This document shows positions 16,373 to 61,300 of a stretch of DNA of 64,000 bases, piece by piece. This stretch comes from Acorus gramineus (Eukaryota > Streptophyta > Magnoliopsida > Acorales > Acoraceae): assembly GCA_030737835.1 (NCBI GenBank), contig CM060850.1, forward strand, positions 5,338,015 to 5,402,014, in the 5' to 3' direction. The stretch's first letter is position 1; every line of letters starts with the position of its first letter. The notes beneath the pieces were generated by a model. The model was given only the letters and a program-made list of their open reading frames with translations, had not been told where the DNA came from and searched no databases. The position numbers and the translations under genes were made by a program.

Positions 16373-16459
16373 GCTTCGGAAGGATCTCATCCTTTCCTTC
16401 CAAACCCGACTAAAACACTCAATCGATCCTCCGTTTCATGATCGAATCCCCCCCAATCG

Positions 16460-16978
16460 ATGGCGAATCAAGGCTTTGAACCGGTGCCGGAAGGCGACGC
16501 CGAGGCGGAGGCGGCATTCACGAGGCGGGGGTGCTGCTCCTGGTTCATCCCCCGCTTCGGATCGCCGGCGGCGGACCGCGGCCGGTCGCCGTGGTGGGAG
16601 CGGATCAGGGTTGCGGCGGCCGCGGACGGTGGAGATGCTGTCGGAGGCGGCGGAAGGTGGTGGAACAGGGCGTTTTTGAGGGTGCGTGAGTGGTCGGAGA
16701 TCGTGGCGGGGCCGAGGTGGAAGACGTTCATCCGGCGGTTCAACCGGAACCCTAGGTCCGGGGGCGGCGGTGGCGCCGGAGGCGGGGGGAGGCAGGGGAG
16801 GTTCGGATACGATCCGCTTAGCTATGCTTTGAATTTCGATGGTGGGGATTTGTCGGAGGAGGACATCGGCGGCGGGTTCAGGGACTTCTCGTCGAGGTTC
16901 GCGGTGGCGCCGGCGTCGGCGAAGTCTTCGATGGATCTTGGTGGAAGGGACGCGCCTCCGCTATTCGGGGTTCATTGA
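16460..16978 (+). CDS. Plant-specific protein with VREWSE-GPRWKTF core
   Basis: An intact single-exon gene of 172 codons. The N-terminus has a CC-W motif (residues 25-28, CCSW). The conserved block VREWSEIVAGPRWKTFIRR spans residues 75-93, a Gly-rich spacer follows at 100-114, then GYDPLSYALNFD (116-127), RDFSSRF (141-147) and KSSMDLGGRDAP near the C-terminus (155-166). From memory this block order belongs to a small family of uncharacterised land-plant proteins of 150-220 residues that end in SSMDLG-DAP; its biochemical role is not known to me. The ATG fits because the leader upstream has a TATA box, a CT tract and a telo-box. The coding part is strikingly GC-rich (CpG-rich) against an AT-rich background. 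No signal peptide or membrane segment. A 3' untranslated region or intron may follow the TGA at 16976. Function unknown. Confidence 0.85.
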   Translation: MANQGFEPVPEGDAEAEAAFTRRGCCSWFIPRFGSPAADRGRSPWWERIRVAAAADGGDAVGGGGRWWNRAFLRVREWSEIVAGPRWKTFIRRFNRNPRSGGGGGAGGGGRQGRFGYDPLSYALNFDGGDLSEEDIGGGFRDFSSRFAVAPASAKSSMDLGGRDAPPLFGVH

Positions 16979-31496: not shown

Positions 31497-32636
31497 TCAA
31501 GAATTAAACCGACCTCTTTCGGTCCAAGGCGAAGAGACATCCAACGAGCCAAGTTGAGAAGAAGCTTCAGTGACAGAGTGAGGCAGCTTCCCTTTCTTAT
31601 TAGACCAAAGCCAAATCTTCGAAACAGAGAAGCTTTCGCCTTTGCTCCCCGCACAAATCCTCTTTCCTTCCAATTCTTCATCTGTTCCAAAATTCGTGTT
31701 CAAGCCCTTCCTCCTCCCGCCCCTCCCATCTTGTGAATTTCTCAATGCCACCTGAAGATTCAATTCCCCCACCACGTATTGATACGATCCCATCGAATAA
31801 CATCTCCTTGCATCCAAACGACTACTGCTCGTTTCGCCCACATCCTCTTCAACACTGTTATCCTCAATTACCCTCTTAAACTTCCCAAGTCTCACCGGGA
31901 AGACCTTCTTCTCCAACACAATCTCCTCCTCTCCATTGGTCATCTTCTGACTCCCTGCCGAAGGAAATCCACATTCAATATCTCCCGTATAACCATTCTC
32001 CTCCCTCGCATCGTCGAAATAAAACACAGGGTTCTCTATAGCATGCCCTGGCACGAATAGCATACCCCGACAGAGTGGGCAAGTCGAGTTGGAGAGGAGC
32101 CACGTATCGATGCAGTCCAAGTGGAAGGCATGGCCGCACAACGGGAGGAGCCGGAGCTTGTCTTCGTCCGAGAACTCACAAAGACACACGGCGCAATCAA
32201 ACGGCTCTTTGGGTCCGACGATTTCTCTGTAGAGGAAGACTGGGAGTGCGTCGATGAAGGCTTGATCAAGGCCGGAGTCATGGAGGTGGAAGAGCTGTTG
32301 GAGCTGCCTCTGTAGGGCATCAGAGGGGGCGTCAGGAGGTGGGTATCGGCTGGATTGGGTGGAGAGGGTGGAGAACAGAGAGGAGGGGTGTTTGATTAGG
32401 AACCGAACAAGGAGGTGGAGGAGGCCAGATATGAAGAAGATGACTGCAAGGATTACGATTATGAAGAGGACAGCAGGGCTGATTCTGGCGCCACTGGATG
32501 AGGGCGGAGGGGGAGGCACTAATATTGGTTGTGTCAATGTGTCTCTCTGGTGATTGTTGATGGTCTGATGGGATGCAATTGTTAAGGGATGAGAATTATA
32601 GCCATCTCTTCTGATTTGGTGGAAGACCCAACTCAT
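31497..32636 (-). CDS. ATL46: ATL46-like RING-H2 E3 ubiquitin ligase
   Basis: A complete intronless gene of 379 codons, as is usual for ATLs. It starts MSWVF, matching the MSWV start I recall for Arabidopsis ATL46. A Pro/Ser run (residues 41-48) precedes one membrane helix (about 55-80, [17 protein letters not shown]). The [20 protein letters not shown] block (105-124) follows, including the GLD motif of ATLs, then the RING-H2 finger at 148-189 with spacing C-x2-C-x15-C-x-H-x2-H-x2-C-x10-C-x2-C and the ATL-type Pro before the third Cys. The C-terminal half carries [15 protein letters not shown] and [12 protein letters not shown], shared by the ATL46/47/13 subgroup. The enzyme would sit in an endomembrane or plasma membrane with the RING in the cytosol and recruit E2-ubiquitin. 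The substrate is unknown. Orthology to ATL46 rather than ATL47 is from memory. Confidence 0.93.
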
Positions 32637-32639
32637 TTT

Positions 32640-35185
32640 TATTGAATCTTAGAACTACTATAACATCTAATACAACAGATGGACTGAAAAGAGCCTTTTT
32701 TTGGGGGGGTGTGGGGGTTCAAATCTGGGTTTGAAATTGGAAATGCTAAAACGTTGCAAATTTGTGTTTCAAGATTTGAAAGTGGACCATTCAAGTAAGA
32801 TGGGTATGCTTAGAAAGCATTCAAATCTAAGTAAATGAAATTGGTTTCAAATGAAAGAAACACATACACAGTCAAATTAAGCAATTTTGAAGAAATGGGT
32901 CTCAAGACTAAAGAAAAGTATTACCATCTGCTACAAAAATGAAGATCCCATTTCTTTCCCCACTAAAGTTGATTCTTTTCTTCAACTTAGCTTTCCCTTT
33001 CTTTCTATGAAATAGAACCCATATACAAAAGGAGACTTATAAGAGATTGTAAAGTCACTAGTGGTCACCTACCTCTGTTTTGGAAGTGAACCCGCCATGA
33101 ATGGATCTTGAACAGTGTTTTTGAGCTGAAAAAACAAAACCCTAACCTTTTTTTGTTTTGAAAAATAAAAATGGGACAGCTTTCATTAGGTTTTTATTTT
33201 AATGGGATTAAATATCCTTTCTTTAAAGTGGGGGAGGCGATGGGAACATCCCAAGGTGTTTTTTTTTTTTTTTTTTTTTGGGTATTTGTTATGGGGAAGG
33301 AGATAAGGATATTTTCGTCATTAAATAATTTTTTGAGAGTTTCATGTGTCATGTTGAGATGAAAAAAGAGAAAGTACGGATCCAATCAGAGACATTTTCT
33401 TTGTCTCATAAATCTGGGGTGGTTTTTACTTCAAAATTTTTAAAAACTTAATATATTTAAAAATACTGAATATTCTAGAAATTGTCCACAGTTTCAACTG
33501 TGACGTTAGAATAACTGATTATTTTATTTTCATTAAAAAAAGCACATTAAAATATGGATCTCTCATGGTCTCCTTGTCAAGAACCTCCAAGTTATCTAAA
33601 TGGAAATACAGCATTCACGACTAACATTTTTTTAAATAATATCTACAAGTCGTTTTATATTTTTAAGCATGTTTTGTGTTGCTATCAGAATTGTCTAAGC
33701 GAAGCCTAAACGATACGGTTAAACGTTCCATGTGGAACTAGTCATCGATCACCTAATTAGCTTCATTAGGTTAGAGTATGGTCTGTATACGTGTATCCGC
33801 ATTGCCAAACCACTTGGGTGTTGATAATAAATGGGTTTAACACTTAAAACATATGTTTAATTAACGTGATCCATTATTTCTAATTTATTTTAATTGCACA
33901 AAATTATATAATCTTGACTTATTACATAAAAAAGTTAACCATTTAAAATATTTTGATCAAATAATTTTAATAGTGAAACAGGTTATGACCATTAGGATAT
34001 TGATTTTCATATTTTAATTTTTAACGGGGAAAAACAAATAAATGTATAGTAATTTCATGCATGGTTAGCCTGATAATATAATTCCCCTCTCCTGAGACCC
34101 TTTTGCATTCCACCCTTATGTTTTTCATTTATAAATATAACATTCTCGTAACATATTCACTCATAAAAACATCTTTTAAATAATTAAAGAATTTATAATA
34201 ATATAAGCAATATCCTAAAAAAAAATGTATGTTATTAAAAGTCTCCTAGACGGCTAGGCGCATGGTGATTTACTTACATCACCTTACACTGGTCTGGCCA
34301 TGGAGACAACTATGAGTGTTACATTTTTTTTTTGTTAATAGTTTCATAATTTATTTAAGTAAAAAAGTAATTTTTATAAGAGAAAGCAACCCAACCACAA
34401 TCCAGAAAACATGTGATAAGAAATTACATTACTTAAGAACATATTTTCTTAAAAGATCTATATTATATGGTAACAGATTATGCATGATTTCTTACCAATA
34501 AAAAAAATAAAAAATGATGGAAGCCAAGGTCATGTGTGAGACGGTTCATTTCATCTAATTAGTGGTGCTTTTATTTGACTTTATATATGAAATTTTGAAT
34601 CAACTTTTGTAATCATTTATGGAGAATTACTATTTAGATATAAAAATAATAATAATTACTGGTGTTTTAGGCGGCAAAGAGATTAAGAAATTTTGCAGAA
34701 AAACTTTTTTTTATTTAATTCTATATTTTGGATATTTATTTTACTTTTTTTTCAGGATGACTTTTCTAGAAAATCTAAATTTTGATAACGTTTCAAAAAG
34801 GTTCAATACAGACCTTTTGTATATAAAATCCATAATTAGATTCAATTTTTTTTTCATTTACAAAATCTACATGTATTTTAGAGTTTTTGTTTTTACTATT
34901 TATAGAAATCCCAAACAGCTGTGAATCATATTTTTCAAAAGGATTTTAACTCTGAGTAAATCTTTTTTGAAATTCGGATTCCTAAATTAAAATAATGATC
35001 AATATGCAAACATTAGATTTTTTTTTTTTGAAAAATATAATTAAGAAAAATTAGCTTAATCATCATTTTTTTTTTCAAAACCACAAAATCATCCCTCATC
35101 AAGATCAGGTACATGTACCCAGTCATAAAGTTAATATATACATTTTTAATCCGAAAGTTAATAGTACATGGTGATGAAGGATGAC
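32640..35185. other. 5' flank of the ATL gene and intergenic DNA
   Basis: About 32640-33160 is likely promoter and leader for the minus-strand ATL gene (AACCCTAACC-type motif near 33140; no decisive TATA). Poly-T at 33260-33279. Beyond that, AT-rich sequence with no gene or clear element. Confidence 0.4.
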
Positions 35186-39709: not shown

Positions 39710-40440
39710 GAATTTCTTGTCAATTGTCATAAAAATGAATTGGTAACATAAGGCTAAGTTAACAATTAATTGGTAACATAGGGCCGGTAGGAGATATTAG
39801 CTGTTTTTCAATAGAAACTTTTTTTTTTTATCGATTAATGGCTCAGAGGGGTGTGCGATCACATGTATTTACTTTTATGTTTTGTATCTCTGGTTCTTTC
39901 TTTTTTTTTTAGTCTATTCCTATTCAGACATTGTCTATTTTCCTGTTTATGAGAAATATAATTGACCACAATTTTTCAAAAACAAGAAAAAAAAAAGGGT
40001 TGAGCTGCCTCAACTTTTCTCATTTCAAATGAAAATAAAAGGCAATTTTTTGGATGTGAGTAGTGGTTAAGAAAGGTTCTTACAGTGATGTCACATGTTA
40101 ATCCATCTCTTCTTTACACTTCCTGGATCTCTTTTGTGACTTTAATTATACCTAGGACATCATTATAGAATCCTTTAAAAAGCATATTATAATCTCATAT
40201 ACCTCGGTGGTTGTCTATTGAGTTATATATCTTTGTTAAACAAGTATAATTTTTCATTTCTTCTATATATGGGTTCATACGATCATTGAAATATGTACTT
40301 CAATTTTATAAAGATGTGTTTTATAAGATAAATTATACTATTTAAAAAAAAAAAAATCAAATTGTATGCTAATAGTAGACAAGAGAAACTGAGTCAAATT
40401 TTTTTCTTATATTTAACAAGGAGAGTGGAATATTATATTC
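39710..40440. repeat. M7 segment, copy at 40 kb
   Basis: Collinear with 52.63-54.40 kb: TTTCTTGTCAATT, AATTGGTAACATAAGGCT, TGTTTTGTATCTCTG, GAGTAGTGGTTAA, GTCACATGTTAATCCATC, CTATATATGGGTTC and GATAAATTATACTATTTAAAA occur in the same order. The 52.6 kb copy carries about 930 extra bp in the middle. No ORF. Confidence 0.7.
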
Positions 40441-40829
40441 CTCTTACTTCAGTCAAGAGACAAGATCATTGAATCATCCAAGGTCATGTGATCAGGTGGT
40501 TTCAACACATTGTGAGATCCACCGTAAGGACTCCATTGGAGGCAATGATCAGATAGGTGCAGTCTTATGTGTGACAATAATGTGGATTGGAACTGGTAGT
40601 TTTCAGGTTGAGCAACAAAGTACATGGTGGGGATAGTTTGTGGGGATAGTTTGTCAAACGAGTGATCATGTACTCGGCTATTTCTGTAGTCTTAATTCAG
40701 TGTATGAAATTTGATTAATTCATTCCATTATGCATTTCATTTTTTTTTTAATGTATATAGTTTAACAAACAAGTATATATATAATTTTTAAAATTTTAAA
40801 ATGTGTTGGAACAGCTAAGATGATTACAG

Positions 40830-40926
40830 ACTTCTCTGAGGAAAGTCGGCTAGCACCCCCTATCCGTAAAGGATGACCGATGATCAAGTCTTGGAAACAC
40901 CAACCTTCACAAAAAAAAAAAAAAAA
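40830..40926 (+). mobile_element. Poly-A-tailed retroposon end
   Basis: A GC-richer segment (AAGTCGGCTAGCACCCCC..) ends in a run of 16 A at 40911-40926, as left by L1-type or SINE retroposition. The 5' end is unclear. Confidence 0.4.
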
Positions 40927-40929
40927 GGA

Positions 40930-41175
40930 TTACAGACTTGTAGTCTCATATAAACATCTATAATTGTTCAATGAGGGTATACATCTCATTAAATGAGTAT
41001 CTCATTAAAGTGTTTTCACATTTCTATAAATAGATCCATACAAATGGTTAGATTATGTTATTCATCTTTCATAAAAGTATATATCTTATCTAGTAAAGTA
41101 TATTATTTGTAAAAAAAATCAAAATATAGTGTGGACTGCTGACAGGACTGTAATGAGAATGTGTCTAACAATTTT
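40930..41175. mobile_element. M1 MITE relic
   Basis: CATCTCATTAAATGAGTATC, TATAAATAGATCCATACAA and ATATCTTATCTAGTAAAG are decayed M1 internal words. Ends are degraded. Confidence 0.4.
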
Positions 41176-41214
41176 CTTATAGAAAATAACTCATTTTTAA
41201 CTTTTCTTTGTCTA

Positions 41215-41584
41215 ACAGGCCTGCATCAAAGGGTGACCGAAGTTCCAAGGCAAATGTATCCCAACTTATTGTCCCCGCGGTTGTATGGGCCTTTTGTAAC
41301 GCGCGTAACCAGCAATTTTTCGTAGTCAAACTTGGTATGAAGAGAACTTCTAGGAAGCCTTCTTGAGGTTCATGAAAGATTGGGGTATGTATGGGGTTGG
41401 TTCGGGAAGGGTCACTTTCTAGAGAGATATACTCTAAGTAATGTAACGGGCTTCGATTGCATGAGGGAACCTTATAAACCTCTTCTAGTTGTTCCCTCGT
41501 GCTTGATCTTGTATGTTTTAGGTTTATGCTTCAATTTTTATAAAATTATGGTTGCGTGCCTACCGTTCATCAAAAAAAAAAAAA
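41215..41584 (+). mobile_element. LINE 3' end or retroposed transcript
   Basis: A GC-richer block (GGTTGTATGGGCC, TAACGCGCGTAACC) ends GCCTACCGTTCATC followed by 14 A (41571-41584). The TTCATC-poly(A) finish is like plant L1 tails. A 77-codon ORF inside it has no recognisable domain. Confidence 0.4.
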
Positions 41585-41784
41585 ACAATCATGTAAAAGA
41601 TTATTACTCTTAGTGCATTTTATAGTCCACAATTAACACTGCATGTGTTTTCAATTTTTAAAAATCATAAAATTCATCCAATAAGATATGTACGGTAAGA
41701 AAGGTGAAATGTATAATCTCAATGGCTGACCCATGATTTTTTTTCTAGTAAGGGTCATCACTGATAAATAAACATCAATGATAT

Positions 41785-42036
41785 TGTTATGTATAATCTT
41801 TTTTCAACCCCAATTTCAATCTACAAGTGTTTTGAATTTTTTTTAAAAAAGTATACATTATTTATTGAGGTATATGCTTCTATAAAAAATGAAATATATG
41901 CTTTAATGAATTGTATGGATCCATTTGTAGAAATGTAAAAAATTTCTATTGAGACATATATATCGTTAATGTGAGTGTATGACGTTACCGAGGTATATGA
42001 GACTGAAATTAAGGCTAAAAAAAGAACTGTGTAACA
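41785..42036. mobile_element. M1 MITE, good copy (252 bp)
   Basis: Left end TGTTATGTATAATC..CAACCCCAATTTCAATCTAC; right end GAGACTGAAATTAAGGCT..TGTGTAACA, forming TIRs. Same orientation as the next copy, 49 bp away. Confidence 0.75.
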
Positions 42037-42084
42037 ACACTCAAACATAAATTTAAGACACCATACAATAACTTTTTTTTTTAA

Positions 42085-42338
42085 AATTACATAGATCTTT
42101 TTTAGGTCTACACATGTTTTTTGATTTTTTTTAACAATAGTAAATCTCATTTAATGAGTTACATATTTTTATAAAAAAAATGAAGCATATACTCTAATAA
42201 ATTGTATGGAGGATGCGTTTATAAAAAATATAAAAAAATTTCTAATGAGGCATATGTCTCGTTAATGTCAGTATATAAATGATGCTAATTAAATACATGG
42301 GACTAGAATTGGAGCTAAAAAAAGGATTATGTGTAACA
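42085..42338. mobile_element. M1 MITE, good copy (about 254 bp)
   Basis: Left ATTACATAGATC..TAGGTCTACACATG, right GACTAGAATTGGAGCT..ATGTGTAACA. Lies in tandem with the preceding copy. Confidence 0.75.
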
Positions 42339-42384
42339 TAGCTCTAAAATTTTAATAACACAATAAAGATACTTGATATCATAG

Positions 42385-42406
42385 CTCTCTCTCTCTCTCT
42401 CTCTCT
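42385..42406 (+). repeat. CT microsatellite
   Basis: Eleven CT units next to an M1 copy. Confidence 0.85.
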
Positions 42407-42649
42407 TATTTTTCTCATTTGATGTTTCATATCCTCAACTATCTAAAAGACTAAACCCTTCGTTGGGTGCATAATTGTCCCTTTTTTTCTACAATTTTCC
42501 TCGGCTTATTGTTATTAATTGCATTTGCATTTGTTTCTATAAATCCAGTCGGGGTGGTGTTCTTCGACCTGCCATTGTAAACTCTATTGAATTAAATGAT
42601 ATCATTTATAGAAAATGTAAATTTTTTTTAACAAGTATATACCTCAATA

Positions 42650-43030
42650 CTGCCGTTTGGATAGATAATTAAGTTATTATGAAGTTTATGACTATTCTAG
42701 TTTAAATAAAGATAAAATGATTTTTTATTTAGTTGAGTTTTGAATTATTCTCATTAAAAAAACGTAATGGTAAAGTATTTGTTGTTTGGATAAAATGTGA
42801 ATAAGATGTTGATAAGGATTTATAAAAGATAAAAAAATGATAATAGTTGATTTTTGACGGTTGATTTATATGAAGTGATGACAATTGATTTAACAATGGA
42901 CCAACATATTCTTTTGGATTGAATAACCTGAAAAAATTTAATTCCAATGATAAGCTTGATTCCATATATCACTTTATACCGGACTCTATTCTCATATATT
43001 ATGGCATTCCAAACATCAATTTTGAAGCTA
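42650..43030. mobile_element. M4 MITE, inverted copy
   Basis: Starts GCCGTTTGGATAGATAA and ends ATATTATGGCATTCCAAAC. Read in reverse complement it carries AATCAATTGTCATCACTTC and TCTTTTATAAATCC as in the other M4 copies. Confidence 0.65.
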
Positions 43031-43212
43031 TTTTGACTAATTTCTGCTTATTCTGGACTCTAGTCTCAAACCACACATGGGCTAGTGAAGGGTAGCAAGG
43101 GGAGCCCTCCTCATGTTATACAAAGTCGGTGACGTAGGGTTCTTATCCTGGACATTTAGGTGGGCTTCTAGGCCTAAGCCCATACTTACCAAACAGATCC
43201 GAGTCATCTGAC

Positions 43213-43464
43213 AACCCTAAATATAGTCTACAATTGTTTTAAATATTTTAAAAATAGTATAACTCGTCTAATGAGATGCACGTTTTTATAAAAAAAAAAT
43301 AAATGAAGCATACACTTCAATAAATTGTATGAATGCATTTATAGAAAATTTGAAAAAAAATTTATCGAAGCATATACATCGCTAAAGTAAATAGACGCAC
43401 TAATAATTTTCGATCAACACATATAAGACTGGGAGTGAGGATAAAATAAAAACTGTGTGTAACA
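43213..43464. mobile_element. M1 MITE copy
   Basis: AACCCTAAATATAGTCTAC at left and AAGACTGGGAGTGAGG..TGTGTAACA at right; the interior matches the 42.1 kb copy with more decay. Confidence 0.65.
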
Positions 43465-43499
43465 ATACTCCTCGGTATGACTATCAGTTGTAAAGTGCC

Positions 43500-45050
43500 A
43501 TTTGCAGTTTGAAAATGGTCCTCCAATTACATATACACTATGATGATGCAATATATTTCTGTTTTATCATAGTATATGAAAACTTTCAAAATAATACACT
43601 GACGTATTTTAGTGTACACTTCACTTTTTATAATAGTATGTATTTGAGTGGGCGAATGTATATGCATTCTGTGTTTGGAATGTCAATTTTTTACAACTAT
43701 CCTGGTTTGATTTTGGCTAGAAGGTGTTTGCAATCCTGGATAAATGAAATCTCTAATAGAGCATACATGTAAAAAGATATACATTTGATTTATTCAAAAT
43801 ATATATACTTTATTAGAAAATATATAATTAAAAAAATTAAACTTGTATAGACTATAAAAGTGACTGCAGGAACTTGTGCAAAATTTTCCTTCCATTAATA
43901 TCTAAAGCGAACAATTCAACACAAAGCATGTTGTCTCTCCTACAACATATAGATATATTCACCCAAAGAATTTATGCTCTTTGAAGAATCCAAATCAAAT
44001 TCTTAAATCTTATCCACATAATAAATAAAATGTTGTAAAAGCGTTAAGCGTTAATTGAACGGTTGAAGAGAGACTATGGATTAATTGGCTAGGCGGAGAT
44101 TAATCGGTCACTTTTTAGAATAGTAATTATAATATGTACACATATACATATTATATATATAATAATTTTAGACTACAAAATAATAACAAAGTAACATCAA
44201 AATAAATTTAATAATATAAGCATAATAGGGATAGCATAAAAAAATTAATTAATAGATATATAATATATTAGTAACTTAATAACTTATTAGTCAACTATAG
44301 ATTAATCAGAATAATGGCCAGGCACTAAGCTGCGAGTTGAGTCTGCCTAGGCCTAGGTGGGAGATTAATCGAGGCCTAAAAGAGATTTTTAGAACATTGA
44401 ATACATATATACCTAATAATGATATTAATCTGTATCAATATTAATTATTTTTTATAAATTGATCACATTATCTTCTGGAGTTTAATTGAACATTGAATAC
44501 ATAAAGTATTCTGGAGTTTAATTGATCACATTATCTTCAGAGTTTTTAACTTCAGATTTCAATTTTGAGCAGATTTGTGGGAGGAGATTAACATTTGTGT
44601 TGCATGCGTATCTCCAGTAACAAAAAAATTGAACCCACCACTCTAAGCATAAAATCTTTGTGAGTTTATAGGACCTCTTGATAAATAGAAACCTTATCTT
44701 ATCCCCAATACTGCCCTCCCCATACATTTTTTTTTTTTATCATAACATCATCTAAAAGTCACCTTATTTCATAGTATAACATGAGATTATTTAATCTCTG
44801 CACTTTCATCCCCTCATTCACTATCTTTAATTTTGTTGTGATGAGATACTGTTTCAATATTCATGCCTTCAATAAATACAGCTTTCAAAACATTAATTTT
44901 TATACACCCTCAACATTTAGAAGTACGTACCAATAATCATTAGAAATTTAAAGGGTAGACATGAAATAGACTTTTGTATGAAAAAAAAAAGATAAAACAT
45001 GTTCAATTGGAAAAACTACAAATTAGTTAGATGTAGAATATACAATTTAT
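43500..45050. other. Intergenic DNA 3' of the mini-SIN3 gene
   Basis: No gene. A fragmentary M1 relic at 43740-43860. A 350-bp stretch at 44047-44400 begins and ends with GGCTAGGCGG / CTGCCTAGGCCTAGG words that resemble decayed hAT termini. A short local duplication (TTCTGGAGTTTAATTGA) lies at about 44470-44530. Confidence 0.4.
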
Positions 45051-45053
45051 TGA

Positions 45054-47899
45054 CTAACAAAGTCTCTTTGTGAAGAGCTTAGAACAAAACCTATCATAAT
45101 ATGAGATATGCTTCTCCAGTTCCTCTTCCTTCTTGATCAAGCGGCCTAGGATAATAGGGATCGCCATTTTAGGCTTCATGCAGAGCCGTTCGATTATTCT
45201 ATCATCCATGTAAGTCCGCCTAATGCATCTCAGCTGTAAAGCTGTTTAACAAAGAAAGAATTGATAAGAGCACATACATAAACACAGTTTTGAGAAATAA
45301 TGAATTATAACATAACAACAATTAAAAACGAATTAACTCCCATACGAACCGTTGAGTTTATCTATGGTAAATATTGTACTGTCATTGTCCTCCATGTCTT
45401 CAATCAACTCCTCAAGCCGATTCACAGTACTCCTTAATCCCTCCAAAAACATATCCATTTCAAACCTGGGATCATTTTTGTATGATGAGATCTCACTAAT
45501 TGTAAATATGGAAAATGAACAAAGGAAACAGAAGAAGTAATTCTATTTAAGGGAGAGGATGATAAAATTCTTTCCTCCCACCTTAGTTTCTATGAGTGGC
45601 CTAGTATTGGCCTAACACTACTGACCATGTAAAATAGATTCAATAAGAATTCTATAACAGAGAAAAAATATTGCTAACTAGTTGAATAATGACTTACTTA
45701 ATATCTTCGTTCTGATTAAGTCTTTCCTCATATATTTCTTCAGGGTGGTTTCTCGTGGTCTTGTAATTAGAGCGGTCATCATAATCAGAAGTACATGGCA
45801 ATAGTACCACTTCTGTATTCAAATCTTCGTGGTTGCTCTGTTCATTTGACACACGACATTTACACTGCCAATTTAAAAAAAATGTAAGTGGTTGTCCAAG
45901 AACTCATATATATTCACAAATGATAAGACTTACATTTTTCGGAATAAACCGATAACTGGGGGTACAAATCTCCCACTTTGAGCGATCAATTTCGCGAAAA
46001 CTTTCCTTCACGTGCTTTTCCCTGTTTAAAACCGAGGAATCCTTCCCATCTGACGAATCAAAAGAACTTGATGAAATTATTTCAGGTAGGCTATCCTCAT
46101 CCCTCTCCCCTTCAAATGGTTTGTCCTCCATTTTAACTAAGCCATTTGTGCCTCCTTAATAACATGAGAATTTAGTAAGTATTCTAAACTTCAGGCAGAT
46201 TATTAAGGTAGCAGTAAAAGTATCCAATTGGACAGAATATAAATTTATCACTGTGCTTGGAAAGGGAAACAAAATCTCTTTCCCTTCCCAATAGATCTCT
46301 CCATGATGCAAAATATGCTACGCATATATAATATCCAATATCCTTTCTCGGGATCACTTCCACAAAGATTCCTAATGATGCATGTGCAAATTTGCTTGGA
46401 ATGCATGATCAGATAAGGCGGTCATAAAGTAAATGTGAGAATCAAAGTTATAAAACAACATTAAAAAATAGTAAGAGTTCATAAACAGTGATGAAATTAT
46501 GATTTTCAGACCTAAAAATAGTAAGAGATCAAGATTTTCTCAAAATTCCATAAGTGAACTGTCAACTAAAAAAGCACATTCAAATGCCTGATGGAAGAGC
46601 ACATGATTATCACATTCAAATGCCTGGTGGAAGAGCTCATGATCATCACCTACTAAAAACAGCATGGAGAAATTTGCATATAAAATATAGTTGTTTGACA
46701 TAATACTGTGACAAAATCACCATTCATAATTATGGCTCAAATATACTTCCACTAGACTATCAACTAATATCACCCAGAAAGCTAACATGGAAAAAAGGGA
46801 GTATCCAAGAATTTAGTGTCTTACTTTGTCTTTTAGCAGCTGCATACATATCAGGCGAATCCACAGTAGAAGAGCAGATTGGGCCAGTATCCGCAACAGC
46901 GTGGAGAGCGTCGAATATTTTCCTCTGCAAAATCAAAAACACAAAGACACACATAAATAAATAAATGAACTGAATTTTTACTACTTGTTAAGACTAGCAA
47001 AATTCACAAACTTTCAACAACAGATTCAACATGCTCTTTATAATTGGTTGATCATTCAGAGATGAAAAACGAAGGTATGATGGTTTCAATAAACCATTCA
47101 TGTCAACAATCATTGCCCAATGCTAATATTAATCATAAAAAACCATGTATCCAACAGAGTCATAATTTCCATCCTTCAATTTAAAAATTAGCTAATTTTA
47201 TAATGATACAATGGATGTTAAAAACAACAATGAAAAAACCCAATCCTAAACAAACATATCTGCAAAATATTTTCAGACAAAACAATACAAAAAAAGAAGC
47301 ATTCCCATTGATTCTATTAGAGAGGTTCCAATACAAGTACAACATACACAACATGAACATCAAAAAAAAAAAAAAAAAATCAACAAAACCAGTAAATCAA
47401 AACCAATACCTTAATCCTGATTTTCAAGGTACGAGGTGGAGTAACGCTGGAAATCGATGGCAGAAATCCTCTGAACCCTGAAACTAAATCCGATTCACCC
47501 TTCATAATCGACCCAACCTACAAAACATAATATTAAACAATCAAAATCAATAAATTTTAAGAGACACCCATTAAAGAACTCTTAAAAGGGTTCCCAAAAA
47601 AAAAAAAAAAAAAAAAAACATACTTCTTGTTGTATGTCGGCGAAGGTCTTTTGGGGGACCTGATACAAGACTTTGCAGAAAGCCTTAAATCGTCCATTTT
47701 TATTCTCCAGACGACTCTGTCATCAAACACACAAAACAAAATACATCAGAAAAACCAATATTTCAATCAATGCGTCGACTTTTTTTCGGTTTTTTGGGAT
47801 TACCTTCGCTTCCTCGACGTAATCGATGGCGGATTCGAATCCGGGGGTGATCGGAGGGCCGTGGCGGAAGGGGGTAGACCAGACGGAGTCGAGAGTCAT
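45054..47899 (-). CDS. Mini-SIN3: PAH domain plus HDAC-interaction region
   Basis: Assembled by eye. Eight exons: 47804-47899, 47624-47716, 47410-47517, 46825-46924, 45934-46154, 45698-45864, 45350-45465 and 45054-45241. All seven introns are GT-AG and phases agree throughout (0,0,0,1,0,2,1), giving 362 residues. Residues 24-83 form one paired amphipathic helix domain (AIDYVEEAKSRLEN..FKAFCKVL..VSGFRGFLP). A Ser/Asp/Glu-rich linker (about 140-180) follows. Residues 191-362 match in order the SIN3 corepressor/HDAC-interaction region: CTPSYRFIPKN, HPEEIYEERLNQNEDIKFEMDMFLE, LNALQLRCIRR, PIILGRLIKKEEELEK. Full SIN3 proteins have three or four PAH domains and over 1000 residues; here the frame ends just after the interaction region. 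It may be a competitive adaptor for histone deacetylases, or a duplicate in decay, though every exon is open. AATAAA lies 3 bases after the stop. Confidence 0.85.
46575..46646. repeat. 36-bp tandem duplication in intron 4
   Basis: CACATTCAAATGCCTG.. repeats at 46575 and 46611 with three differences, inside the largest intron of the mini-SIN3 gene. Confidence 0.8.
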
Positions 47900-48072
47900 C
47901 GTTGCTTTGAAAGAATTGATTGAAAAAAATTATTGTTTTTGTGATTTGGGGTTTATGGAAGGAAATCACAACTAAAAGGGTTTTGTTGCAATAAAATGGT
48001 CTTTCGGGACTCGGAAGGAATTTGATTCGCTTTTGAGAATGTTATGAAGACACCCACAACGGTTATATTTTG

Positions 48073-49025
48073 GGTAAAATGCATTTGGACCCCCTGGATT
48101 TTTCGGAACTTACATAAACACCCCGTAAAGTTTAAAAGCGCGCACTTACACCCCCTTCCATTATATTTTTTTTGGTAAACTTTGTTTGGACCCCCTAAAG
48201 TTTTCTAAACCTGCAGAAACACCTTTTATAGTTTAAAAATATGCAATTACACCCCATGTAATTTAATTTTCTATGAAGATGAGATAAAAATACGATTTTA
48301 CCCTTTTAATTAAATCTTTAACATGTTTTCACTTTTTTTTGGTGGATTGTTTTCACTTTTTAATTAATTATTATATGACTTAATTCTCACAAAAATGTAT
48401 TCAGATGTATTTTAAGAATTAATTATTGTATAAGTTAATATTCATAAAGCATATCTAGAATTCATTAATTAATTTTTTCTATGGATATTTAGATAGTTAA
48501 GGGTAAAACAATAATTTTAAATTACTTTTGTTATATCTTAATAAAAAATATAATGGTATGGGGTGTAAGTGCATGTTTTTAAATTTTAGAGGGGTGTTTC
48601 TGTAGGTTTCAAAAACTTCAGGGGGTTCAAATGCATTTTATCTTCTTTTTTTTTTTGTTAAGATGTGACAAAAGTAATTTAAAATTACTATATTACCCTT
48701 AACTATCTAAATATTCATAGAAAAAATTAATTAATTAATTCTATATATGCTTTATGAATATTAACTTATATAATAATTAACTCTTCTACTACATCTGTAT
48801 GCATTTTTGTGAGAATTAAATCACATTATAATAATAATTAATTAAAAGGTGACAACAAAAAAAAAAAGTAAAAATATGATAAAGATTTAATTAATATGGT
48901 AAAATTGTACTTTTATCTCATCTTAATAGAAAATCAAATTGTAAGGGGTGTAATTGCTTATTTTTTAACTATTGGGGGTGTTTCTGCAGGTTTATAAAAT
49001 TTTAGGGGGTCCAAACGCATTTTAC
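48073..49025. mobile_element. M2 element Y, split by a second M2 copy
   Basis: The left terminus 48073-48168 (GGTAAAATGCATTTGGACC) and right terminus 48920-49025 (GGTCCAAACGCATTTTAC) are inverted. If 48174-48642 is removed, the sequence on the two sides joins to match the uninterrupted order seen in the inserted copy, read in the opposite direction. No ORF. It lies about 170 bp upstream of the mini-SIN3 start codon. Confidence 0.75.
48174..48642. mobile_element. M2 element X, nested in Y
   Basis: A complete copy of about 469 bp: GGTAAACTTTGTTTGGACCC at the left, TCAAATGCATTTTATC at the right, with TIRs of about 90 bp. It sits in opposite orientation to Y, so 48174-48540 and 48660-49025 form a near-palindrome of about 365 bp per arm. 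Confidence 0.75.
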
Positions 49026-49039
49026 TCTTATATTTTTTG

Positions 49040-50029
49040 GGGTTATATTTCCACCCTATAAAATGAGAACCCCGCCCCATGGAGTTCCCTGCTCGCGTCC
49101 CCCATCTCTCCTATGCCTTGTACCCCTGCATCACCGATGATTACTGCATCTTCTGGCCTGCTGTCGCGTTCAAAAGGAGGTGGAGCCCGAGTTTCGACAG
49201 GCGGGCTCGACGGTTCCTGTCGCAACTGTTGATGAGGACAACATTCTTCGATCTTATGTTACTGTGGACAATCGGGCACGTCAGCTAAGCCTGTCAATGG
49301 GTCAGGTCCAGACCCGAACCCGACCCGAACCCGATTACACGTGTAATATACCCGATCCGAGTTGGACCCGACCTGACGGACCCGTCGGGTCCAGGTACAC
49401 CCCGCCCCGACCCGTTGGACCCGAGACCCAATTGTTTTATTAAAATATGTTCATATATTATAAGACCATTAATATTAGTTGATACATAATTTTATTTCTT
49501 ACTTAACTTATTTTTGTATCTACAAGTTCATAAATCATAATCATAACAAGCTTATAAATCGGTTTGTTTTGGACAATTAACTTATTAGCTTTTGAATTTG
49601 TATGATTAATTAGTTTGTTGCATGATTTATGTTTATTATTTAAGTTAATATGTTAGTGTTTATTATTTTGAATGTTGTTTAGGTTAAATTGTTTTGAATG
49701 TTGTTTAGGTTAGTTATGTTTATTATTTAAATTAATATGTTTTTTATGTTAGTGATTGTTGTTTTAAATGTTGTTTAACAAAAAATTTCAAATAGAATGA
49801 TAAGGCAAACAAATACATGAGCTCTTCTCTTTTTTTTTTTTTACCCAACCATCCGGGTCGGGTCGGGCCCGGGCCCGGCCCGGGGCCGGGGCCACATTTC
49901 CCCGGGCCCGCCGGGTCCTGTCACGGGTCGGGTCTGGGTCCACCCCGACCCGACCCGGACCTGACCCGTTGACAGGCCTAACGCCAGCCCCCAGTGGAGG
50001 TGCTCAACCCCCTTGCAATCCTTACATAA
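49040..50029 (+). pseudogene. Open frame interrupted by a hAT element
   Basis: A GC-richer, coding-like frame runs through 49141-49285 (includes VEPEFRQAGSTVPVATVDED). Leaving out the hAT insertion and one copy of its 8-bp duplication, the frame continues for about 14 codons and stops at TAA near 50027. I do not recognise the family and see no promoter. It may be an exon of an old gene or a retrocopy. Confidence 0.35.
49286..49980. mobile_element. Non-autonomous hAT element (695 bp) with target duplication
   Basis: The terminal 24 bases are inverted repeats with two transition differences (TAAGCCTGTCAATGGG.. versus TAGGCCTGTCAACGGG..). Flanks are ACGTCAGC (49278-49285) and ACGCCAGC (49981-49988), an 8-bp target duplication with one C/T change. 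Both sub-terminal regions are dense in CCCGACCC/GGGTCGGG words and the middle 400 bp is AT-rich. This fits plant hAT MITE-like elements. No transposase. Confidence 0.8.
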
Positions 50030-50034
50030 CATTT

Positions 50035-51780
50035 TTATTTTTTTAAGTTTATTCTTATTTATTAATTATTTTTTATTCTTAAGGTTAAGAATGAAAAAAA
50101 TATTTTTATTAGTTTTATATTTGGTTAAGAATAAAAAAAAAATCTATCTATTTATATATGTGTGTATATATGAATAGTATCATATTCATATATACCAAAT
50201 CTCAATATTTTTTAATGGTTTTTTTTAATACATTTATATGTGATAAGTAGCTAATTTTGGATTAAATATGGTTTTAAATGTTTTATCTCACTTTTCATTG
50301 TGAAATTGTCATTTTTGAAAAAAACATATTTCACAATCATAAGTATATATCGGAAATCTCTTTCCAATGATGTATTGATCACCCCAATCTGAATAATAAT
50401 TAAAAAGTTATGAATTCATTTAATTCTTATTTTTTTTATTTGTATTTATATATACATTGGATAATATCATCCATATCTATCAAATCTTAATGATTTTTTT
50501 TTGTATATATACTCCTCAAATTCACATTTTAGTACGTAAAATATCCCTGATGATTTGTCATTTCCAATAATACCATTCGAAATTGTTTAAATTGTACATG
50601 AACTTCATTTTTCATTAATTCAAGCAATATTGTTGTGGTTTTAGAATTTCAAATGTGATATTTTTACAATATAGGGTTGGTTTAGGGGTATATACACAAA
50701 AAACTCAATTTCAGTTATAACATATCTCTTTTATGTGTAATTTTATAATAAATTCTATAAATGATTTATTTAGTCATTCTTAGAATTTTTATTATATCAT
50801 ATATGTGCATATAACATGATATATTATATTTCATATAAATGGATTGAAGAAAATTGTAGGTGGGTAGATGTTTTTTTTTATTTACATGCACGTCATGTGT
50901 GGGGGACACTAGTTACTACTACCTAGATAATAAAATCTTTCTATCTATTATATAAGGGTTTTCAAACGTATCTAACATAAATTTATGTCTTTACGGTTTA
51001 ACAAATTTATTAAAGTCCATTATTATTCAAAATCAATATTTCTTCTCTTAATTTTATCTTAATATTTAAAATAGATAATTACATTTTAAAAATTAAAAAA
51101 TATGAAAATTTTAAAATAAAATAATATAATTTGTGGGTATATTTAATTTGAATTTTATTTTTATTATTTGTTGGTGGGTCGTTCTTGATATTTATTAACA
51201 TATCATATTATTTAGTGGGTTATAGGGATGTGGGTGGGTCCATTTAATTTATTATTATTTTATAAAAAATTCATTGGGATTAAAGGGATCAGATTATCGA
51301 ATTATCTTATTTTATTTTATTGTTGGTATATAATTTTTAGAGGTTTATATATTAATATATCATATTATTTATTAGTTTTACTTTTACACATATAATGCGT
51401 AGATTTACATATGATCCAAGGTTTCTTCCTATTATTAAATTTTACTCATAGGACATGCTATCTTTACACTTAATCCATGACCTCCACTCGGAATAATAAA
51501 AATGGAGGAGTCATGCATGTTCACAAATATAGGCACATGTACATATGTACAAGGACAATTATACAGTTTGCTTAGTGCACATACAAAGCACAGTTTGTTT
51601 ATCTAAACTTTTGGATTAATTAATGTAAAAGTAGCCAAATTTTTTCACGAGTAGACATAATTATTGAGAGTATGTCGATGCTTTCTTTTCATTCAAATTT
51701 ATACACGGCAGTTATAAGGGGTGGTTTGCAGGATTGGTTCGTCACATGAGCAGAGATATATTTGAGATTTTCAGATTTGT
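50035..51780. other. AT-rich intergenic DNA
   Basis: No gene or clear element. The last 150 bases hold the upstream region of the Gly-rich protein gene. Confidence 0.45.
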
Positions 51781-51897
51781 TACATGAGTGACGAGATGCA
51801 TGGGATTTTCAATTGGACTTATTCATCTGGTGTACAAGCTTATCTGATCCTTCTTTTGTGGAGAATAATCTCCCAGTTTTCATTGGCTGATGAGTGC

Positions 51898-51905
51898 TAT
51901 AAATA
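51898..51905 (+). promoter_or_regulatory. TATA box of the Gly-rich protein gene
   Basis: TATAAATA followed by CACACCACAC; predicted transcription start near 51930, giving a leader of about 37 nt to the ATG at 51967. Confidence 0.7.
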
Positions 51906-51966
51906 CACACCACACATTTTTGATACTTATCATCCGCAAATCATGTATTTTTCCTCTTCTCTCAGA

Positions 51967-52317
51967 ATGGGAAGTTCCAAAGCAGTCATGAGTGTTGCTT
52001 TTCTTGTTTTGCTCCTTGTGGGCCTCTCCTCCGCCGCTAGGACCTCAACGGCCCGTTTAAGCAGAATCAGTGAAGGTGGTGGTGGTGGTGGTGGAGAAGG
52101 TGGCACTGGTGGTTTCGAAGGTGGCTCCGGTGATGGTGGCGGAGAAGGTGGTGGCGAAGACGATGGAAGTGGGACCGGTTCCAGGTCTGGATTTGGAGGT
52201 AGCGCTGGTGGTGGATCTAGTGGTGGTGGCAGCAATGGGTCAGGCGCCTATCCATCCGGCAGTGTTGTGTGGATTCTCTACCTATTTTTTCATGTTTGGA
52301 TCTTACTTAACTTTTAA
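51967..52317 (+). CDS. Gly-rich secretory protein with hydrophobic C-terminal tail
   Basis: 116 codons. I choose the ATG at 51967 because it begins a classic signal peptide (MGSSKAVMSVAFLVLLLVGL, cleavage likely near residue 23-25, SSAA) and leaves a normal leader after the TATA box. An in-frame ATG at 51943 would sit only about 13 bases after the expected transcription start. Residues 37-95 are Gly-rich (GGGGGGGEGG, GGGEGGGEDDGSG) with acidic and Ser residues. The protein ends in a 17-residue hydrophobic stretch (100-116, VVWILYLFFHVWILLNF) after small residues (GSGAYPSGS). Signal peptide plus terminal hydrophobic tail is the layout of a GPI-anchored surface protein, though most plant GRPs of this size lack such a tail. 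Cell-wall or apoplast role inferred. The tail could also come from an unspliced intron read-through. Confidence 0.75.
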   Translation: MGSSKAVMSVAFLVLLLVGLSSAARTSTARLSRISEGGGGGGGEGGTGGFEGGSGDGGGEGGGEDDGSGTGSRSGFGGSAGGGSSGGGSNGSGAYPSGSVVWILYLFFHVWILLNF

Positions 52318-52453
52318 TGTGGAGTTGTCATGGTTAAAGAGTCATTAGTGGTATTATTGCTTTCATAGTAGAGTATTATTGTTTTTTTAGTTGTTCTATT
52401 TTTATTTTATTTTTTATATTTTAGGTTTTCCTTTGTTTGTCTATAAATAGGAC

Positions 52454-52459
52454 AATAAA
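52454..52459 (+). terminator. AATAAA polyadenylation signal
   Basis: AATAAA 137 bases after the stop of the Gly-rich protein gene, in a T-rich 3' region. Confidence 0.5.
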
Positions 52460-52629
52460 GAATTTCTTCTTTTAGTTTAGTTTAACATGATACGAAAATC
52501 ACATCAAAAATTCTAGATCTATAAAAGTTTTTTCTTTTTTCTTCCTCGCTCTGATTTAGAAGTCTTCGAGAACTTTTGATATCCATATTTTTTTCTTTTG
52601 TTGTTTGATGCTTTTGAACGTATTAATTA

Positions 52630-60129: not shown

Positions 60130-61300
60130 AGCACTCCCTAGTACATTGTTAATATTCACATAATTGGGAGATGGTATTTTCGGTATTTCTGAACAACATT
60201 CGGTTGGAGGAATCTAAAAATAAATTTTCAATCCCTTAAGGGCTTAAAGCAAACTTAAAAATTTTCAAGGACCTAAAATTAATAGATGGATGATCACATA
60301 GACCACTAATTAATTTTTCCAATTTTGAAAGACATGATTTGCAAAGTGAGGTTACACAATGGGGATGAGTATAAGAATTGTATAATGGCTTTCAATCTAT
60401 TTTGGTCACTTTTCCCCTGTAAATATGAATGACAGAAAAAAAATTCAACTTTTTGAAAATAAATTTTGAAATATTTAATAATTACAAAATATATCAAATT
60501 TAAGGAAGGTAATATTGTTTAATATATTCTAAGAGGGACAATTTTGGGTTAACAAAATAAGCATGACATTGAATGTATATAGAGTAGAAGTAATTATTTA
60601 TGAATGGCTTTGAAAAATAAGCATAATATATAAATGCGGTATAAGAAGTATCCGGAGAACACCTGTTCAAATTTTATCAAAAAATAACTGAAGATGAAAT
60701 TGATACATAATATAACATGAACAATATAAATTTAAAGGTAGAATGTCTACCATTTCAGTTAAAAAAAAATCTCTATGCCAAAAATAAATTAATTTGAATG
60801 ATTATGCAAATTAAGTTGCACTGTATAAGACAACCCTGAACGTAGGTGTATTCTCTTCTCTGGAGTTCTAAGCAATTCTTAAATGAGCCCTGCTTAAATT
60901 TTCATACATTATTTTATAAATACCTACATAAGTTTTTAATAAATAGATGCCGCAGATTAAATTCATGGAAATTGTTACTGTACTATCTCAATTTTACGAT
61001 AAAAAAGGCAGCTCGCACATATTTTTATTTTTTTTAAATCGTGTACTTCATCTAATAAGGTATGTATTTTTGTAAAAGGCAAAATATATTCTCTAATGAA
61101 TTGGTTCATATCATTTATAGAAAGTGAGAAAATTTCTTAAAGAGATATATGCCTTAATACAATGAATAGAGAGAGCTAACGAGGCATAAATGACTGTATT
61201 TTGGATTATGAAAATGACGAAGTGTTATAGAACTCTAATTCATTCGTAGGTCCTACAGGCCCGTGGCCTGTGGACATATCGTATGTAGATAAAAAAAAAA
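60130..61300. other. Intergenic DNA with M1 relic
   Basis: No gene. A decayed M1 copy is visible at about 61010-61210 (CTTCATCTAATAAGGTATG, TCTCTAATGAATTGG). Confidence 0.45.

Follow-up and report, generated by a model that had tools for sequence, protein, structure and literature searches.

Does a gene of 362 codons that joins one PAH domain to part of the HDAC-interaction domain (HID) of SIN3 encode a working corepressor protein in reduced form, or is it a decaying or incompletely modelled copy of a larger one? The question is raised by a locus on the minus strand of Acorus gramineus contig CM060850.1, within the 64,000-nucleotide stretch analysed here (the window, to whose positions all coordinates refer). 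On balance, we lean towards the first answer, i.e., that the gene is a paralogue of the plant SIN3/SNL scaffold which has diverged and been reduced but is functional, and whose product would serve as a minimal adaptor between PAH ligands and an HDAC.

The gene and its surroundings

The gene runs from 47899 to 45054 on the minus strand. The initial annotation had described it as eight GT-AG exons of consistent phase encoding an uninterrupted protein of 362 residues, and splicing and translation bore this out: all borders are GT-AG, the phases agree, and the spliced coding sequence of 1089 nt reads through 362 residues to a TAG. The features are listed below in the direction of transcription.

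47930..47932, minus strand: in-frame TAA, 33 nt upstream of the ATG at 47899, closing the frame at the start
47804..47899, minus strand: exon 1, ending in phase 0, with the ATG and the beginning of PAH helix 1 (splicing and translation)
47624..47716, minus strand: exon 2, middle of the PAH (splicing and PAH alignments)
47410..47517, minus strand: exon 3, end of the PAH ('DLVSGFRGFLP'); best tblastn place for three of five PAH queries
46825..46924, minus strand: exon 4, linker
45934..46154, minus strand: exon 5, acidic/serine-rich linker, then the start of the HID ('CTPSYRFIPKN'), including Y200
45698..45864, minus strand: exon 6, the HID portion that corresponds to the middle domain and gate loop of SIN3B, with L221, N222, E259 and D260
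45350..45465, minus strand: exon 7, HID stalk, with E264; the sole exon visible to Pfam when unspliced (E 0.025, below the cut-off)
45054..45241, minus strand: exon 8, the last of the aligned HID (up to residue ~346), followed by a tail of 16 residues and the TAG
45046..45051, minus strand: AATAAA, a possible poly(A) signal, starting at the third base after the stop

No ATG lies within the 100 nt upstream of the ATG at 47899. The GC content is 0.432 in the exons and 0.300 in the introns, and the donor of the last intron (GTTCGT) fits the usual consensus poorly. Within intron 4, a 36-bp unit is repeated 2.1 times (92% match; 46575-46649). Upstream of the gene, within its likely promoter, lies a foldback element of ~950 bp (48074-49025), the near end of which is ~170 nt from the ATG; it consists of nested inverted arms, 187 nt at 89% and 166 nt at 86% complementary, and also holds a ~101-bp unit in about two tandem copies. 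Further upstream, the stretch 49300-49960 has GACCCG-rich ends and several inverted repeats, and resembles a non-autonomous transposon.

Elsewhere in the window, a single open frame of 383 residues on the minus strand (31497-32648) carries a RING-H2 finger (zf-RING_2, E 3.9e-15) and resembles an ATL-type ubiquitin ligase. On the plus strand, an open frame at 51766-52317 includes a signal-peptide-like stretch followed by a glycine-rich one, with no Pfam match at E 0.01. Long open frames overlap on both strands of a G+C-richer stretch at 16436-16978 (174 and 178 residues), the plus-strand one having no Pfam match at E 0.01. Searching the window with the 362 residues (tblastn) returned the gene's own exons and two other matches, at E 4.0 and 7.2, and we rejected the idea of a second SIN3 copy in the window.

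One PAH and the first part of the HID

Compared with solved structures using phmmer, the whole protein matched the SIN3B chain of 8bpa at E 1.6e-14, and all 18 distinct sequences found at E <=1 belong to the SIN3 family, i.e., human SIN3B, SIN3 of yeast complexes, fission yeast Pst1/Pst3, part of the SIN3A HID and single PAH domains. A Pfam match to PF22715 (SNaCT9) was discarded as chance (14.7 bits against a cut-off of 27), and no NCBIfam family matched. Searches for relatives returned none from viral_contigs, where 17 stretches matched a pattern, and none from genome_contigs, where 19 did. The initial annotation had also claimed that a PAH and SIN3 HDAC-interaction sequence share this one compact gene; Pfam and phmmer support this, and six named HDAC-contact residues are kept. 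Judged from its sequence, we regard the gene as a genuine, if reduced, HID gene of the SIN3 family.

The PAH spans residues ~20-87. Its Pfam score (PF02671, residues 42-82) is 17.6 bits, under the curated cut-off of 21.3, and the PAH region alone matches the yeast SIN3 chain at E 1.6e-6, with PAH2 as the best stretch. When scored against individual domains, the region favoured PAH2 of yeast SIN3 (19.8 bits, versus 6.5 for PAH1 and -0.3 for PAH3) and the second PAH listed for Pst3 (PAH2; 20.9 bits, versus 5.1 for PAH1), while human SIN3B ranked oppositely, PAH1 (9.2 bits) scoring above PAH2 (5.9). The PAH is thus real though weak, and the yeast comparison suggests that it is PAH2-like, a label of moderate strength given that PAH1 outscores PAH2 in human SIN3B and that the domain falls below the Pfam gathering score. 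Residues I25, V28, K32, C46 and L49 presumably stand at the ligand-contact positions numbered for SIN3A PAH2, and four of the five (I25, V28, K32 and L49) match SIN3B PAH2, C46 being the one that differs. The five positions are those named for SIN3A in PMC6295471.

The HID is the more strongly recognised of the two parts, with a Sin3_corepress match (PF08295) at residues 196-289 of 44.2 bits (E 2e-11; cut-off 25). In human SIN3B, the stretch 387-553 corresponds to residues 186-346 of this protein, with identity at 57 of 155 aligned positions, and no counterpart was detected in this alignment for the last 16 residues (after ~346). The region of SIN3B equivalent to the mapped SIN3A HID is reported to be 388-651 (PMC8143632), so that the present protein, which ends 16 residues beyond an alignment reaching SIN3B residue 553, covers the HID only in part. 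Within the aligned region, the SIN3A part solved with SUDS3 (2n2h_B) aligns with residues 253-343 (E 1.1e-4); that structure is named Suds3:HID (PMC6295471).

In SIN3B, Y401, L424 and N425 are described at the calcium site of the HDAC and E436, D437 and F440 in the gate loop, while an acidic triad (E456, D457 and E461) fills the basic patch of the HDAC, replacing inositol phosphate, and a charge swap in this triad compromises activity (PMC10156912). All six of the calcium-site and basic-patch residues are identical in the 362-residue protein (Y200, L221, N222, E259, D260 and E264). The gate loop still has acidic residues and an aromatic one: in the printed alignment, D233 stands at E436, R237 at D437 and Y240 at F440, with D235 and D236 adjacent and unaligned. 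Drawing six of six identical residues at random from the 155 aligned positions has a probability of 0.002, a figure that overstates the case because contact positions of this kind are conserved in any case. Of the six, five lie within the 61 columns that human SIN3B and yeast SIN3 have in common; 38 of these 61 are kept here, and the corresponding probability of five out of five is ~0.08 (calculated by hand). Conservation of the contacts beyond the general level is therefore suggestive rather than decisive. HDAC contacts have been named for fission yeast Pst1 as well (PMC10115800).

Other parts of SIN3 also take part in HDAC binding. HDAC1/2 are reported to cross-link to both Sin3_corepress and Sin3a_C (PMC8143632), and SIN3B additionally touches the HDAC via a hinge and a C-terminal loop (PMC10156912). 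Since the rest of the HID, the hinge, the C-terminal loop and Sin3a_C are all missing here, HDAC binding by this protein could be weak or absent. In plants, BiFC reportedly showed the HDI (Sin3) domain of the soybean SNL GmHE13 to be both necessary and sufficient for association with HDACs, so that no further part of SIN3 is required there, and direct binding was seen in pull-downs; the limits of the domain are not stated (PMC12665065). The same soybean domain also bound the acetyltransferase GmGCN5 (PMC12665065), and hence a HID need not serve HDACs alone.

Possible decay, missing exons or loss of binding

The likeliest alternative is a truncated SIN3/SNL copy that is decaying into a pseudogene, its frame being open by chance or by recent origin and its product having no function of its own. 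Such a state would fit the single, sub-threshold PAH, the partial HID and the lack of a C-terminal domain, as well as the foldback element close upstream of the ATG. It would also fit the changes at 23 of the 61 human/yeast-shared columns, among which we count tryptophans: three were lost, W428 to V225 and W434 to T231 (in the MD/gate region, shared by human and yeast), and a stalk tryptophan to L342. These three substitutions may point to altered function.

We nevertheless consider a pseudogene unlikely. In the 149 columns that the three sequences have in common, identity amounts to 37.6% between the protein and SIN3B, 31.5% between the protein and yeast SIN3, and 40.9% between SIN3B and yeast SIN3. 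With its identity to SIN3B so near the human-yeast value, the copy must be either old or slowly evolving, and yet all seven introns are GT-AG and 362 codons are open. A recent fragment would be expected to be still SNL-like, and an old neutral one to be broken. Although a human-yeast distance cannot be set strictly against a plant-human one, the protein is only somewhat further from human SIN3B than yeast SIN3 is, and an old or constrained gene fits this better than free decay does.

Another explanation is that the gene model is incomplete, i.e., that exons for PAH1, PAH3 and Sin3a_C belong to the same transcript, and that the locus is an ordinary or alternatively spliced SNL. As modelled, the gene is not a canonical SIN3/SNL scaffold, which has three PAHs before the HID and a Sin3a_C domain: the model has one PAH, and weakly sensitive scans of the flanks detected no other. 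Sin3a_C (PF16879) was absent from the protein by Pfam and was not found in the 5 kb downstream, in a scan that was weakly sensitive. On the minus strand, neither 40054-45053 nor 47900-52500 gave a Pfam match in any of the three frames, and for the 5 kb downstream, the flank that this comparison covered, phmmer against the PDB found nothing at E <=1 in three minus-strand frames. The weight of these scans is limited by their positive controls on the gene's own unspliced DNA: Pfam, in three frames, saw one of the eight exons, below the cut-off (E 0.025), and phmmer, applied to a single one of those frames, detected no SIN3. This insensitivity is what leaves room for missing exons.

We also searched the whole 64 kb with seven SIN3 segment queries (tblastn). 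The best HID match fell inside the gene (E 1.3e-5), and exon 3 came first for three of the five PAH queries (E 0.04 to 0.18). For yeast PAH2, a place at 61276 came first (E 0.29), followed by the gene's exons (0.41), and for yeast PAH3 and a post-HID segment the best places were outside the gene, at E 0.74 and 0.17. No match outside the gene reached E < 0.1 with any of the seven queries. Conserved SNL exons should show more readily in such searches than a diverged copy does, and none appeared outside the gene by Pfam, PDB or tblastn (E < 0.1) in the regions scanned; moreover, the upstream TAA, in frame and 33 nt from the ATG, and the stop with its AATAAA close behind argue against extension at either end. 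Conserved SNL exons nearby are thus unlikely, the scans being too weak to say the same of diverged exons, and an incomplete model of this kind strikes us as quite improbable.

Finally, we give little credence to a loss of HDAC binding that would leave a pure decoy, acting via its PAH or via a HID surface for SDS3 or PHF12-type partners: the aligned region does take in the SIN3A part solved with SUDS3 (2n2h_B), the later HDAC-binding parts are missing and gate-loop D437 is not clearly kept, but the acidic triad and the calcium-site residues, unneeded by a pure decoy, are identical.

A putative minimal adaptor and its known relatives

We return, then, to a functional, reduced SIN3/SNL paralogue as the best explanation. 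Its product consists of one PAH and the N-terminal part of the HID, and stops before the part leading to the SIN3 C-terminal domain. In yeasts, PAH1 and PAH2 are reported to take transcription factors (PMC6295471), and the PAH cleft of the present protein would accommodate an amphipathic helix from a transcription factor or a cofactor. The HID part, in turn, would grip and activate an RPD3-class deacetylase (of the HDA19/HDA6 type) via the calcium-site contacts and the acidic triad, which would take the place of inositol phosphate; the SDS3-binding surface is perhaps also kept, as the 2n2h alignment suggests. In yeasts, the C-terminal HCR is described to bind the RbAp-like subunit Prw1 (PMC10115800), and PAH3 to bind Sap30 or Rxt2 (PMC10224958). 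Without PAH1, PAH3 and the C-terminal domain, the protein would not anchor SAP30-like or RbAp/MSI1-like subunits. An adaptor of this kind could bring the deacetylase to few, specific targets, or compete with full SNLs for HDACs or PAH ligands; the initial annotation had likewise proposed a selective or competitive corepressor. What the sequence itself shows are the domain features; all of this binding, and the role of adaptor or competitor, we infer.

More speculatively, and with distinctly less confidence, a plant lineage may have evolved a stand-alone mini-SIN3 here, composed of a PAH2-type reader and a minimal unit for gripping and activating an HDAC, with no C-terminal domain. Working apart from the usual SIN3 complex, such a protein could direct HDA19/HDA6 to targets and activate them, or it could deprive full SNLs of HDACs and PAH ligands by titration. 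If expressed and conserved, the gene would offer a natural minimal construct for asking how much of SIN3 suffices to recruit and activate a class I deacetylase, as its product keeps the basic-patch triad without the parts that close the ring around the HDAC. It would also illustrate a way in which SIN3 function could be diversified in plants, by reduction of a gene, as it is in mammals by splicing of SIN3B. A lone remnant in one species, on the other hand, would be of little importance.

Among the literature matches listed, which were covered as titles and abstract openings and included few subscription papers, we recognised no description of a plant protein with a single PAH and a HID without a C-terminal domain, a weak negative. 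The small plant PAH-only proteins (the Arabidopsis 'PAH2 superfamily' genes) are likewise short and have few PAHs; they are not known to have a HID. The angiosperm-specific HDA19 partners HDIP1/2/3 were considered as relatives and set aside, as they bind SNL PAHs and the available text describes no PAH or HID in them (PMC12170880).

The order of a PAH followed by Sin3_corepress/HID sequence is shared with Arabidopsis SNL1-SNL6 and with soybean GmHE13. These are much fuller proteins, however: SNL3 is reported to have three PAHs (7-77, 90-163 and 286-351), a HID at 426-526 and a C-terminal domain at 1053-1299 (PMC9266683), and GmHE13 has 1373 residues (PMC12665065), as compared with 362 residues, one PAH and no C-terminal domain here. 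Human SIN3B, as seen in the 8bpa cryo-EM complex, likewise corresponds to residues 186-346 over its 387-553, including the named calcium-site and basic-patch contacts, and has in addition two more PAHs, the remaining HID and a C-terminal domain, with which the ring around the HDAC is complete. A short SIN3 form is also described in mouse, SIN3B-SF (293 residues), with the reverse make-up: PAH1 and PAH2 are kept, the HID is lost and HDACs are not bound. For SIN3B-SF, competition with the long form for partners was suggested (PMC5902990).

One PAH together with a HID also occurs in C. elegans SIN-3, described with a single PAH and a HID (PMC5902990), or, in another account, with one HDAC interaction domain and one SIN3A_C domain beside the single PAH (PMC9217932). 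The pairing of a single PAH with an interaction region, which the initial annotation had taken to be undescribed, is thus already represented in the family. Unlike the present protein, SIN-3 has the SIN3A_C domain and a PAH nearest to PAH1 (PMC9217932), whereas here the C-terminal domain is absent and the PAH is PAH2-like. What appears to be new, and is unusual, is the reduction to 362 residues without a C-terminal domain.
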